NCBI GenBank assembly: GCA_003558065.1
Contig: PWMU01000172.1
Coordinates: 1-64,000, forward strand
From: Opitutia bacterium
GTDB lineage: Bacteria > Verrucomicrobiota > Verrucomicrobiia > Opitutales > T3Sed10-336
DNA: 64,000 nucleotides
Reading direction: 5' to 3'
The stretch's first letter is position 1; each line of letters begins with the position of its first letter. The notes beneath the pieces were generated by a model, which made no database searches, was not told the origin of the DNA, and worked only from the letters and a program-made list of their open reading frames with translations. Position numbers and translations under genes: made by a program. This document shows, piece by piece, positions 33,031 to 37,612 of this stretch.

Positions 33031-33058
33031 AGAAAAAAGCCCGGCCGAAGCCGGGCTT
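33031..33058 (-). terminator. Intrinsic terminator after the fasciclin gene
   Basis: On the minus strand a 9-bp stem (33050-33058 with 33037-33045) with a 4-nt loop is followed by a run of T, here read as A at 33033-33038. It lies 20 bases past the fasciclin stop. Confidence 0.92.
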
Positions 33059-33077: not shown

Positions 33078-33602
33078 TTACGGAAGCAGGACAAAGTCGA
33101 TGACGTGGATCACCCCGTTTCTCGCGGGAATGTCCACCAGGTCGACGACCAGGCCTGCGGAGGATTCGTTTCCGACGAGGGTTGTCCCGTCCACTTTCAG
33201 AAACGCTCCGTTTACCGTGCGGATTCGTTTGGCGGAGAGTACGGATTCCGATTTCCGCTCGCCGGGGACAACATGATAGAAGAGGATGCCGGTCAAGGTC
33301 TCGACATCGAGTGCCTCCACCAGCTCGGTACCTGTGGAACCTTCTCCGAGGACCGTTTCGGCGGCGGCGTCGAACGCGTCGTTGGTCGGCGCGAAGACGG
33401 TGAATTGGCGTCGCCCGTCGAGGGTCTCTACCAAGTCGGCTTTGACGACGGCCGCCACCAGCGTACTGAAAGCGTCGTTGTCGCTCGCTATTCCGACGAT
33501 GGTGGGGTCGTCCGCCCTCTGAGCGAGCGCTGTTGAACCGATGGCCGGAACGACGAGCAAGGCTGCGGCAGCCGCATAGATGATGTTTGTCAGGATTTTC
33601 AT
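33078..33602 (-). CDS. Secreted fasciclin-domain protein
   Basis: A 174-residue exported protein with signal peptide MKILTNIIYAAAAALLVVPA (continuing to ALAQ) and one fasciclin (FAS1/BIgH3) domain. The H1 motif is FTVFAPTNDAFDAA and the H2-like region is NGVIHVIDFVLLP; ILFYHVVPGE lies between. FAS1 domains mediate weak adhesion or ligand contacts outside the cell. It has its own terminator. The 278-bp gap upstream, toward the LytTR regulator, has a TATTAT-like box on the minus strand but no clear -35. Confidence 0.93.
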   Translation of the reverse strand: MKILTNIIYAAAAALLVVPAIGSTALAQRADDPTIVGIASDNDAFSTLVAAVVKADLVETLDGRRQFTVFAPTNDAFDAAAETVLGEGSTGTELVEALDVETLTGILFYHVVPGERKSESVLSAKRIRTVNGAFLKVDGTTLVGNESSAGLVVDLVDIPARNGVIHVIDFVLLP

Positions 33603-33880
33603 AACGATTTTCTGTTTCGAGTTGTGATAATAGCCGATCGGTCATTCGATCAGTTATTGGGGCCAATCTTCGTCTCTTCTTCCGCCTTCCGCAGCGGTTT
33701 TTCCATGAGCGGGGCTTTCTTCTGTGTGAACGGTTGATTTTGGGGGTGAACGGCGGAGCGGGAGCGGCGCTTCGAGGTGGGGTTCTCTTTCGCTGTGGGG
33801 TGGTTGGTTGGTGAACCGGCGAATCCCTGGGAATGGCGGATTCAAGGGGTGCGGCCTTCGGGGCGTGACTGGTGCCCGGC

Positions 33881-34618
33881 TCAAACACCCAGTCTCGACT
33901 TGAACTCCTGGGCGGCCCGCCGGGACATCTCGACGGTGTTCTCATCCTTCATGGTCACGAGCAGTCCCCCGTTGAACCAGGGCTTGATCTTCCGGATCCA
34001 CTTCAGGTTGATGATCTGGCGGCGATTGGCACGGAAAAAAAGGCTCGCGGGCAGGCGTTCCTCCATCGAATTCAGACTGCGGTGAATAAGCGGTTTCTCT
34101 TCATGAAAAAACAGGCGTACAAAGTTTTCCTCGCTTTCCAGAAGACGGAGGTCGTCGAAATCCACAAACCAGCACGAGTCGCCGTCTTTGATGAAGATGT
34201 GGTCGATCTTGCTTTCGGTCGCCGCTTGGGCCGCGGCCCTGGAGATGCGCTGATGTTTTTCGAGGCGCGTACGGATTGCGGCAAGCAGTTCGTTGGCCTG
34301 ATAGGGTTTGACCAGGTAGTCGTCGGCGCCCAGGCCGAGGCCTTCGCGAATATCGGTCGCGTTTGTTTTGGCGGAAAGAAAGAGGAAGGGGACGACAGAA
34401 GTTTCCGGGCCGGCCTGCAGGGCTTCGAGAACCGAATAACCGTCGACTTCAGGCATCATGATATCCGAAATGATGAGGTCTGGTGGATTTGCTCGGGCGA
34501 GGCGGATGCCGGCAACGCCGTTCTCGGCGGACTCGACCTCGAATCCGTTGATCTCGAGCAGGTCGACCAGGGGGAGGCGGACCTGTTCGTCGTCTTCGAT
34601 GACGAGAATCCGTGTCAC
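33881..34618 (-). CDS. LytTR-family response regulator
   Basis: A 245-residue regulator. The N-terminal receiver domain begins RILVIEDDEQV; the phospho-acceptor Asp is in LIISDIMMPEVDGYSV, and LSAK and VKPY supply the Thr/Ser and Lys positions. The C-terminal half is a LytTR DNA-binding domain (HIFIKDGDSCWFVDFDDLR to FKSRLGV, with FFRANRRQIINL). It starts at GTG 34618, which overlaps the histidine-kinase TGA (GTGA), so the two are coupled. It probably controls transcription in response to the LOV kinase; its targets are unknown. Confidence 0.93.
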   Translation of the reverse strand: MTRILVIEDDEQVRLPLVDLLEINGFEVESAENGVAGIRLARANPPDLIISDIMMPEVDGYSVLEALQAGPETSVVPFLFLSAKTNATDIREGLGLGADDYLVKPYQANELLAAIRTRLEKHQRISRAAAQAATESKIDHIFIKDGDSCWFVDFDDLRLLESEENFVRLFFHEEKPLIHRSLNSMEERLPASLFFRANRRQIINLKWIRKIKPWFNGGLLVTMKDENTVEMSRRAAQEFKSRLGV

Positions 34619-36048
34619 GGGTTCCCTCCCTCTGCCGCCTTTGCCGGCAGGTCGACCACGAAGCGCGATCCTCGGCCCGGCTCCGAATCGAAGCGCACGG
34701 CTCCGCCGTGTCGTTCGGCCGAACGCTGCACGATGTAGAGGCCCAGCCCCGTGCCCTTGACGGTTCCAACGTTTCCGGCGCGCTGAAAGGGCGCGAAGAG
34801 CCGGTCCTGATCCGCAAGGGGAATCCCGATGCCTTCGTCTTCGACCACCATGAGAAGCCGTCCGTCGGCTTCGCCGGCCCGGAACCAGACCGGCTTTTCC
34901 GGGTTCGAGTACTTGATCGCATTCGACAGGAGGTTGTGGAGGATGTGGTTCAAAAGGGCGGGATCCGCGAGAAACCTTGTTCCGTTCGGAAAGGCGGCGG
35001 TGAAGACCACCCGGTCGTCCGCGTGGATCGCGTGAACCTCTTCGACCACCTCCTCGCAAAAAGCTTTCAGGTCGAGGGTGACCGGTTCGAAGGGAATCTC
35101 GCCTGCATCGCTCCGGCTCGAGAAAAGCACATCGTCCAAAAGCCTGTTCATGCGATTGAGCGCTTTTTCGATGTTTAAGAAATGCCGCTCCCGCTTCTCG
35201 GAGGTGAGGGCCGGGCCGTAGTCCTTGAGGAACGCCGCGGAGGCGCGCAGGCCGGTCATCGGCGTGCGAAATTCATGGCTGACCATCCGGATGAATCGGG
35301 TCTTGAGTTCCTCGGAAGCTTCCAGACGTCTGCGGTCCAAAACGCGTTCCGTCACGTCGATCTGGATGCCGACATAGTGTGTCAATTCTCCATCCTCGCC
35401 GTGCACGGGAGAGATGTGGAGCTCGTTCCAGAACATGCTCCCGTCTTTGCGATAATTGCGCAAGCGAACCTTGCAGGGTTTTCCGTCTTTCAGGGCGCTC
35501 CGCAGCACGGTCAGTCCTTCCTGATCGCGATCGTTCCCCTGAAGAAACCGGCAGTTATGGCCGAGCGATTCGCTCGCGGAGTATCCGGTGATCCGTTCGA
35601 AACCCGGGTTGACATAAATCAGCGGGAGTTCGGAATGCCGGGCATCGCAGATGGTCACACCCGACGTCACGCTTGCCATCGCTTCGTTGCGCAGCTTGAG
35701 GTCCTTCATTGCGCGTTTGTGCCGGGAAGCGTCACGCAGCATGACAAAATGCACCGGACGGTCGCTGCGGATGGCCGGCCGCACCGTCATTTCACATGGT
35801 AAAGGACCCGGGCCGGAACTTGTGAGCAGGACTTCCGAATGCCGTGTATCGTGCTCTTCGAGCCGAAGCGGAAGGGGGGCGTCAAACAGATCCGCGAACC
35901 GAACTCCCCTGAGCTCCGCGGGAGAGCGTCCGGTGTAGTTCCCCGCCCTTTTATTTGCGTCGACTACACAGGCATTGCGCGCGTCCACGACGAACAGGGC
36001 TTCGTTCGCGCTTTCGAAAATAAGGTCAAAAGACAGCTCCTGGCTCAC
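34615..36048 (-). CDS. LOV-domain (blue-light) sensor histidine kinase
   Basis: A soluble 477-residue kinase. A first PAS domain spans about residues 5-110. The second (about 122-236) is a LOV photosensor: GHNCRFLQG carries the flavin-adduct Cys166, and Asn198 (NYRKDGS), Asn208 (FWNEL) and Gln229 (GIQIDVT) are the conserved flavin contacts. HisKA follows with His258 in SHEFRTPMT, then HATPase_c (NLLSNAIKYS, DEGIGIP, GTGLGLYIV). Blue light should drive a cysteinyl-flavin adduct that alters kinase activity. No membrane segment is present. The LytTR regulator is translationally coupled downstream. Confidence 0.94.
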   Translation of the reverse strand: MSQELSFDLIFESANEALFVVDARNACVVDANKRAGNYTGRSPAELRGVRFADLFDAPLPLRLEEHDTRHSEVLLTSSGPGPLPCEMTVRPAIRSDRPVHFVMLRDASRHKRAMKDLKLRNEAMASVTSGVTICDARHSELPLIYVNPGFERITGYSASESLGHNCRFLQGNDRDQEGLTVLRSALKDGKPCKVRLRNYRKDGSMFWNELHISPVHGEDGELTHYVGIQIDVTERVLDRRRLEASEELKTRFIRMVSHEFRTPMTGLRASAAFLKDYGPALTSEKRERHFLNIEKALNRMNRLLDDVLFSSRSDAGEIPFEPVTLDLKAFCEEVVEEVHAIHADDRVVFTAAFPNGTRFLADPALLNHILHNLLSNAIKYSNPEKPVWFRAGEADGRLLMVVEDEGIGIPLADQDRLFAPFQRAGNVGTVKGTGLGLYIVQRSAERHGGAVRFDSEPGRGSRFVVDLPAKAAEGGNP

Positions 36049-36388
36049 TCAGTGCAAGAATATCCCCGGACCGGAATCTGTCAAATCGAGCGCCATTCGT
36101 CCCAGTGCTGTGTCGCGCGATTTTCCTAACAAAATGTTACGAAACGCGATTCGGCTTCGAAGCGGCCGCGGTGGGAACCAGACTTTCCCCTCCGGGCGGG
36201 TCAATGTGTTGTTGGAATAGGGAATGCCGCGGAAAGGAAGCTCGTTCAAGGTGCGAAATATGCATCATTTTCTTTTTGAATCGACCCGCCCTTTTTTTCT
36301 TTTATGATGACGTTTTTCCGGGCGTGTGTATTGGATTCTGTCGTTTTCGTGATGGCTGAGTTGCAGCACCGGCAGGATGGAGTCAATT
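36049..36388. other. Divergent intergenic region between LOV kinase and Gfo/Idh gene
   Basis: A 340-bp region without a gene. It must hold the divergent promoters of the LOV kinase and the oxidoreductase. Pyrimidine-rich runs lie near 36262-36303 and a TTAATTATG-like stretch precedes the oxidoreductase. I saw no clear LytTR direct repeat, terminator or small gene. Confidence 0.5.
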
Positions 36389-37612
36389 ATGGGAATCAGC
36401 ATAGGATTGGTGGGCCTCGGGCGGTTTGGGCAGGCCTTTGCGGATTTGTTTCGGGTCCATCCATCCGTGGACCGCGTGATGCTGTGCGACCGTGAGGCCG
36501 ACCGTATCCAGGCGATAGCAGGGCGTCCTGGATGGCATGAGACGTTCGACCCGAAGGACCAGTTCACCCGTTTCGACGACCTTCTTGCCACTGATGTGGA
36601 TGCGGTCGCTGTTATTACCCAGCCGTGGCTGCATGCGCGGCAGTGTGTGCAGGCAATGGAAGCGGGGAAGCACGTTTACAGCGCCGTTCCGATTGTTTCG
36701 CTGCCGGATGGAGACGAGATTCTGGAGTGGTGCGGCCGTTTGGTTGAAGTTAGCGAGCGGACCGGGCAACTGTATATGCTGGGCGAGACCAGCTACTACA
36801 GGCCGGAAACCATGTTCTGCCGGCGCAAGGCGCGGGAAGGGGCATTCGGCGATTTTGTCTACGGCGAGGGGGAGTATTTTCACGATGTCGATGCCGTATG
36901 CAGCCTGCGTGAAGTGCGAGAACAGCGGTTGTCGAGCCAGGCCGGGCACGAATGGCTCAAGATCCGGGAGCGTTACCGCAACGAAGGTATCAGGAGCGGC
37001 CCAATGCATTATCCGACACACTCTGTCTGCGGACCGGTGTCTGTGATGAACGCACGTGCGGAACGGGTGACCGCCTACGGTTACTCGAATCGCAATGGAG
37101 ACCCGTTCTTCGCGGACGATGCCTTCAGTAATGTGGTGGCATTGTTTCGCATGAGCAATGGGGCGGCTGTTCGCATCTGCGAGTGCCGCGAGGTTGCCGG
37201 GTCGTTTCATCAGCCGGAGACCTTTCGCCTGATGGGTACCCGGGGAACTTATGCGGAGCGTTGCTGGAAGGACAATTTTCGGACTGCCGCCGGTACCGCC
37301 AAGCCCCTGCAGGAGCAGGTGCTGACAGACGAGGAAATGCGGGATCCGCTGCCATCGGAGGTGGCGTTAGCCTTCAAACGACTTCAGGACCCGGATGCGC
37401 CGGAAGAATCCGACTTTTCCCCGAAAGGCCACGGAGGAGCTCATCCATACCTGGTGCATGAGTTTGTAGACTCGGTGCTCAAGATCCGTACCCCGGCAAT
37501 CAACGTGTGGGAGGCGGCGCGTTACATGGCGATGGGGGTAATGGCCCATAAGTCGGCCTTGCGCGACGGCGAGACACTGGAAGTTCCCGATTTTGGAGAT
37601 CCGTCCCTTTAG
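36389..37612 (+). CDS. Gfo/Idh/MocA family oxidoreductase
   Basis: A 407-residue NAD(P)-dependent dehydrogenase. The Rossmann motif is GLVGLGRFGQAFADLF at the N-terminus. VITQPWLHARQCVQAMEAG carries the helix that closes the cofactor site, and AGKHVYSAVPI is the usual EKP-type position, here SAVP, so the catalytic lysine is missing from its normal place. HYPTHSV and HPYLVHEFVDS follow in the substrate domain. Verrucomicrobiota have many paralogues that oxidise sugars or inositols. ATG 36389 was chosen because GGAG lies six bases upstream; ATG 36377 is an alternative. The substrate is unknown. Confidence 0.88.
   Translation: MGISIGLVGLGRFGQAFADLFRVHPSVDRVMLCDREADRIQAIAGRPGWHETFDPKDQFTRFDDLLATDVDAVAVITQPWLHARQCVQAMEAGKHVYSAVPIVSLPDGDEILEWCGRLVEVSERTGQLYMLGETSYYRPETMFCRRKAREGAFGDFVYGEGEYFHDVDAVCSLREVREQRLSSQAGHEWLKIRERYRNEGIRSGPMHYPTHSVCGPVSVMNARAERVTAYGYSNRNGDPFFADDAFSNVVALFRMSNGAAVRICECREVAGSFHQPETFRLMGTRGTYAERCWKDNFRTAAGTAKPLQEQVLTDEEMRDPLPSEVALAFKRLQDPDAPEESDFSPKGHGGAHPYLVHEFVDSVLKIRTPAINVWEAARYMAMGVMAHKSALRDGETLEVPDFGDPSL

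Follow-up and report, generated by a model that had tools for sequence, protein, structure and literature searches.

A LOV histidine kinase paired with a LytTR regulator, and a fasciclin gene as its candidate target, in an Opitutia bacterium

LOV histidine kinases, that is, the Brucella and Caulobacter types and the engineered YF1-FixJ system, are soluble proteins in which a LOV domain with an adduct cysteine precedes a histidine kinase and is joined to it by a short helical linker. The locus that we describe encodes a kinase of the same plan; unlike those systems, its HisKA-type kinase is coupled to a LytTR regulator. Regulators such as AlgR, AgrA, ComE, and BtsR share with this regulator the receiver-LytTR architecture and operators of 8-bp direct repeats separated by 12–13 bp spacers; they differ from it in that its receiver is of the OmpR/PhoB type and its partner is a HisKA LOV kinase rather than a kinase of the LytS/AgrC type. 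The AlgR half-site consensus is CCGTTCGTC. Published LytTR operators also include those of RcoM-1 and CoxC, in which three imperfect 8-bp direct repeats are spaced at 12–13 bp as in the array described here, but their half-site is TTCNNGCA and the proteins are one-component gas sensors (PMC11347149); the direct repeats bound by AgrA lie near −60 (PMC4227749). In the literature that we searched, no paper joins LOV histidine kinases with LytTR.

The locus lies in a 64,000-nucleotide stretch of contig PWMU01000172.1 of an Opitutia bacterium, which we refer to as the window. The sensor operon consists of the following features.

36057..36084, minus strand: sigma-70-like promoter of the kinase-regulator operon, TTGACA-N16-TATTCT, ending 8 nt before the GTG
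34615..36048, minus strand: PAS-LOV-HisKA-HATPase sensor kinase, 477 aa, GTG start, intact
33881..34618, minus strand: receiver-LytTR response regulator, 245 aa, GTG start, OmpR-type receiver plus LytTR domain

A first-pass annotation of the window had assigned the kinase a full LOV signature followed by HisKA and HATPase domains, and both assignments hold. In the translated ORF, Cys166 (within GHNCRFLQG), Asn198, Asn208, and Gln229 stand at exactly the residues that it named, in a segment whose alignment to solved LOV proteins needs no gaps (best match 7a6p, E 1.5e-39; YtvA 2pr5 and phototropins match likewise); the flavin-contact positions are retained in the alignments shown, with the LQ, NYRKDG, FWNEL, and GIQ segments intact. 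Pfam places PAS_9 at residues 130–234 (4e-31), HisKA at 249–316 (6e-15), and HATPase_c at 362–470 (4e-28), and finds an additional N-terminal PAS domain that the annotation did not mention. His258 is the phospho-acceptor of the H-box, the N, G1, and G2 boxes (NLLSNAIK, DEGIGI, GTGLGL) are all found, and the linker from Gln229 to His258 is short (29 residues) and helical. Judged by its sequence, the kinase is a probable LOV photoreceptor, for which flavin binding and photo-adduct formation are predicted. The NCBIfam blue-light kinase model NF052306 covers only residues 111–258 (128.8 bits vs a cut-off of 450 bits). No other clear LOV protein occurs among the own-genome matches that we looked at, and the kinases found in a plasmid search are all <60% identical.

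The annotation had also noted that the kinase stop overlaps the GTG start of the regulator gene; indeed, the TGA of the kinase (34617–34615) and the GTG of the regulator (34618–34616) share GTGA, a 4-nt overlap. With a Response_reg match of 2e-26 (92.7 bits), a phospho-acceptor, and a LytTR match of 2e-22 (79.5 bits vs a curated cut-off of 22.6), the protein is by these matches a LytTR response regulator; Asp9, Asp10, Asp52, and Lys104 are invariant in alignment A1. It falls outside the LytSR/AlgZR type, because the receiver is not of the LytR/AlgR type and the kinase is not of the PF06580 type (His_kinase, LytS type), a family that is not among its Pfam matches. The receiver is 48–51% identical to Bacteroidota receivers and 31–33% identical to the AlgR-like regulators widespread in the order's family f3; for the LytTR domain the identities are 16–30% to Bacteroidota regulators and 52–57% to the f3 regulators. 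Among the NCBIfam receiver models, CseB, RpaB, MtrA, and PhoB match best. Because the identities of the two domains split in this way and the NCBIfam matches agree, we infer that the regulator is a mosaic in which a domain swap placed a HisKA-compatible OmpR-type receiver on a local LytTR output. It is the sole LytTR-domain protein of the genome (4.13-Mb assembly, 97% complete), so LytTR half-sites have one candidate binder there.

Across 373 genomes of the order, a profile search identified 11 further orthologues of the regulator, all in one other family (f5) and 62–73% identical to the window's regulator in pairwise comparison. A LOV-kinase gene lies directly upstream in 11/11 of these genomes, as far as the contigs reach (at L247 the contig holds only the C-terminal part of the kinase, the LOV domain being outside the sequence); some start codons are assumed. 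Since 12 genomes retain the pair, a chance pairing is ruled out, and the two genes are kept together while the remaining neighborhood differs. Among 117 other receiver or receiver-LytTR loci, a LOV motif occurs in one and does not adjoin a LytTR gene. In genus g202, the pair is near an ion-transporter-like cluster that resembles Mrp/NADH dehydrogenase subunits (L250 after 8767; L251 after 9352). The pair was found in none of the 7 other genomes of the source's own family. In the regulator tree the window's sequence nests with genus g19 inside f5 (support 96/95), which suggests horizontal transfer into this lineage, but no more than that, because the branch is long and f5 by itself remains acceptable as a clade in an AU test (p = 0.19).

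The homologues also bear on the cue that the kinase senses. Their architecture varies: the window has PAS-LOV, L069 and L070 have PAS-LOV-PAS, and at L071 the LOV domain is preceded by no detected PAS. A second PAS before the LOV domain would be in keeping with a kinase that responds to another cue through its N-terminal PAS, or to redox or oxygen through the LOV flavin, and a review notes that some LOV proteins may be redox sensors (PMC6798134). However, no homologue with a sequenced LOV domain lacks the adduct cysteine (the motif asparagine is serine in several relatives), whereas the extra PAS domains come and go, and a sensor of redox state alone could do without this cysteine; we therefore regard a cue other than light as improbable. 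The proposal of light-controlled transcription in the first-pass annotation stands in this part: a real LOV kinase/LytTR pair is conserved as a unit, and its most likely output is transcription. That light switches one particular gene, encoding a fasciclin, is suggested by the DNA downstream of the regulator.

In the window, the next gene downstream of the regulator encodes a fasciclin, a type of surface-adhesion protein, and a 278-bp gap separates the two genes. The features of this gap and of the fasciclin gene are the following.

33746..33753, minus strand: half-site 1 of the predicted LytTR operator, CCGTTCAC
33726..33733, minus strand: half-site 2 of the predicted operator, CCGTTCAC, 20 bp downstream of half-site 1 (12-bp spacer)
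33705..33712, minus strand: half-site 3 of the predicted operator, CCGCTCAT, 21 bp downstream of half-site 2 (13-bp spacer)
33627..33632, minus strand: candidate −10 element of the fasciclin promoter, TATTAT
33078..33602, minus strand: fasciclin, the predicted target; secreted, single-domain, 174 aa, Pfam Fasciclin 5e-24, signal-peptide-like N terminus
33037..33058, minus strand: intrinsic terminator-like hairpin 3′ of the fasciclin gene

The hairpin makes it probable that the transcript contains one gene. The predicted operator has the form of LytTR sites, that is, direct repeats of 8–9 bp in pairs or triplets with 10–13 bp spacers, and we take its half-site to resemble that of AlgR. The exact 28-bp double repeat CCGTTCAC-N12-CCGTTCAC (33726–33753) occurs once in 4.13 Mb, where ~0.003 occurrences are expected; the chance of any exact 8-bp repeat with a period of 20–23 in a random gap of the same size and composition is 0.027, so the window's repeat by itself is suggestive only.

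Arrays similar to that of the window's fasciclin gene precede fasciclin genes in seven other pair-bearing genomes. Arrays with a 20/21-bp period lie ~90–150 bp before fasciclin starts in G000 (the window's genome), G139, G430, G167, G475, G528, and G482; that in G438 is weaker.

G139: CCGCTCAG-N13-CCGCTAAA
G430: CCGTTTAA-N13-CCGCTAAG
G167: CCGCTCAC-N12-CCGCTTAA-N13-CCATTAAA, between the fasciclin gene and a DNA photolyase gene
G475: CCGTCCAA, CCGTCCGG, and CCGCTGAC at 20 then 21 bp
G528: CCATTCAG, CCATTCAT, and CCACTCAT at 20 then 21 bp
G482: CCGCTCAG-N12-CCGCTGAG

The arrays of G139 and G430, congeners in genus g22, are in the same place though their spacers differ. With a template built from the window's own letters only and a null of 16,604 genomic 300-bp windows, 11 fasciclin promoters of other pair-bearing genomes gave a combined p = 3e-6 for the triple and 1e-4 for the pair; the five fasciclin promoters used as controls (four from relatives that lack the pair, and that of the second fasciclin of the window's genome) gave p = 0.3–0.4, one of them (G003) having a weak pair at −268 and the others no array. 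In 12 whole genomes, a degenerate form of the triple is matched exactly at six sites, 3/6 of them at fasciclin promoters, and the fasciclin-promoter match is the only one in each of G000, G167, and G528; this pattern was widened after some sites had been seen and so is an illustration more than a proof; the window-template test alone escapes that bias. The exact triple match in G507 was rejected as a target (it is intergenic, in a repetitive stretch, with no fasciclin), and the array comparison leaves G507 unjudged because its contigs are short. In G139, two further loose half-site pairs lie between genes (L235 ~1501; L237 ~1501) and are possibly regulon members or chance.

The system might instead have its main targets elsewhere, the fasciclin array being a minor site or one bound by another regulator. 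Such an arrangement would agree with three pair-bearing genomes (G120, G444, and G521) having no clear array upstream of the fasciclin genes examined, and with some loose matches being intergenic at other loci (the L235 and L237 sites of G139). We consider it rather unlikely: the window's genome has neither a second LytTR protein nor a second exact array, and across genomes the array tracks the pair, being absent or weak in the pair-less relatives.

Gene order adds to the case for the fasciclin gene. At L071 (G139) and L249 (G430) a two-domain fasciclin gene directly follows the regulator, and in G139 it is the genome's sole fasciclin gene; the window's fasciclin is 72% identical to a single-domain fasciclin in G475, which also bears the pair. 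Fasciclin genes do not adjoin the pair in most f5 genomes. The first-pass annotation had named both flanking genes, an oxidoreductase and the fasciclin, as candidate targets. The fasciclin is upheld by its adjacency in a second genus and its conserved promoter array, and is a strong candidate for a target at which the regulator is predicted to bind; the oxidoreductase (36377–37612) is set aside, because the region between its gene and the kinase contains no array and it is not beside the pair in other genomes.

DNA photolyase was also considered as a general target and rejected: a full array is present at its promoter only in G167, where it is common to the fasciclin gene, and the other genomes have none beyond weak matches in G139 and G430. 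In G167, the photolyase gene is divergent from a two-domain fasciclin gene with ~212 bp between them (L222:4871–5084), and the intergenic array is possibly a common light-controlled promoter region. The weak matches (CCGCTKG-N14-CCGYTCA, ~95 bp before the start; L260, L264) could mark a second target in g22. Photolyase (PF03441) was found in 17/18 other genomes checked but not in the window's genome assembly, where it may be in an assembly gap; its absence from the assembly would place it outside the regulon of the window's genome.

The promoters suggest how the system would be wired. No half-sites accompany the sigma-70-like promoter that serves the kinase-regulator operon, and the operon is thus probably made constitutively; autoregulation was rejected because the half-site array was not seen upstream of the kinase genes. 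In G120 and G475 the kinase promoter is TTGACA-N16-CATCCT, ending 7–8 nt before the GTG. The −10 element ends just 7–8 nt before the GTG in three genomes (36048–36084, minus strand, in the window; L069 ~6197; L248 ~1477), a position that would yield a leaderless mRNA starting at or beside the GTG codon. For the fasciclin promoter we found no good −35 element, as would fit a need for an activator. In five genomes half-site 1 precedes a −10-like hexamer by 81–84 bp; in the window the distance is 121 bp, the extra ~40 bp corresponding to about four helical turns. Repression, for example by bending or blocking the promoter, is a reading with a low probability: CoxC shows that LytTR proteins can repress where their sites overlap the −35 (PMC11347149), but here the sites are upstream of the predicted −35 region, with half-site 1 at the distances just given. 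Because the array precedes a promoter whose −35 is poor, activation is most likely, and the layout appears to fit a constitutive sensor operon with an activated target.

Taken as a whole, the sequences make it probable that a soluble LOV-kinase/LytTR two-component system acts on the fasciclin gene via the upstream array. Blue light would form a flavin-Cys166 adduct in the LOV domain, Gln229 would relay the change into the helical linker, and a shifted kinase/phosphatase balance at His258 would alter the phosphorylation of Asp52 of the regulator. The regulator would then bind CCGTTCAC-N12-CCGTTCAC-N13-CCGCTCAT in tandem, as the conserved DNA pattern suggests, and most likely activate the fasciclin gene, either sign of the light effect being compatible with the sequence. 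What the system chiefly controls would be a fasciclin (FAS1) protein, secreted and active in adhesion or photoprotection; in one relative, the array has a DNA photolyase gene on its other side as well. FAS1 proteins are induced by photooxidative stress elsewhere: RSP_1409 of Rhodobacter sphaeroides responds to light and singlet oxygen (PMC7074977), the algal FAS1 protein AstaP is inducible by photooxidative stress (PMC7477208), and carotenoid-binding algal FAS1 proteins are likewise induced (PMC7477208; PMC10147662). RSP_1409 and AstaP are under other regulators, with no LOV-LytTR pair, but their induction makes a photoprotective or adhesive role plausible for the window's fasciclin.

A broader reading, which we offer tentatively, is that this order has a dedicated, portable blue-light cassette. 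It would comprise the LOV kinase, the regulator with its mosaic of OmpR-type receiver and LytTR domain, and a fasciclin gene whose LytTR operator has a 20/21-bp period; the window's lineage would have received it from another family, and some members would use it to control DNA photolyase as well. With the fasciclin gene as its target, a natural LOV kinase gains a candidate transcription target at one 50-bp site whose geometry is already understood for LytTR; optogenetics, which uses light-driven two-component systems, would gain one with a LytTR output. It also links light sensing to fasciclin proteins, whose role in bacteria is poorly known and which elsewhere are induced by photooxidative stress. 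If the cassette reading is true, light would couple surface adhesion or photoprotection to DNA repair.
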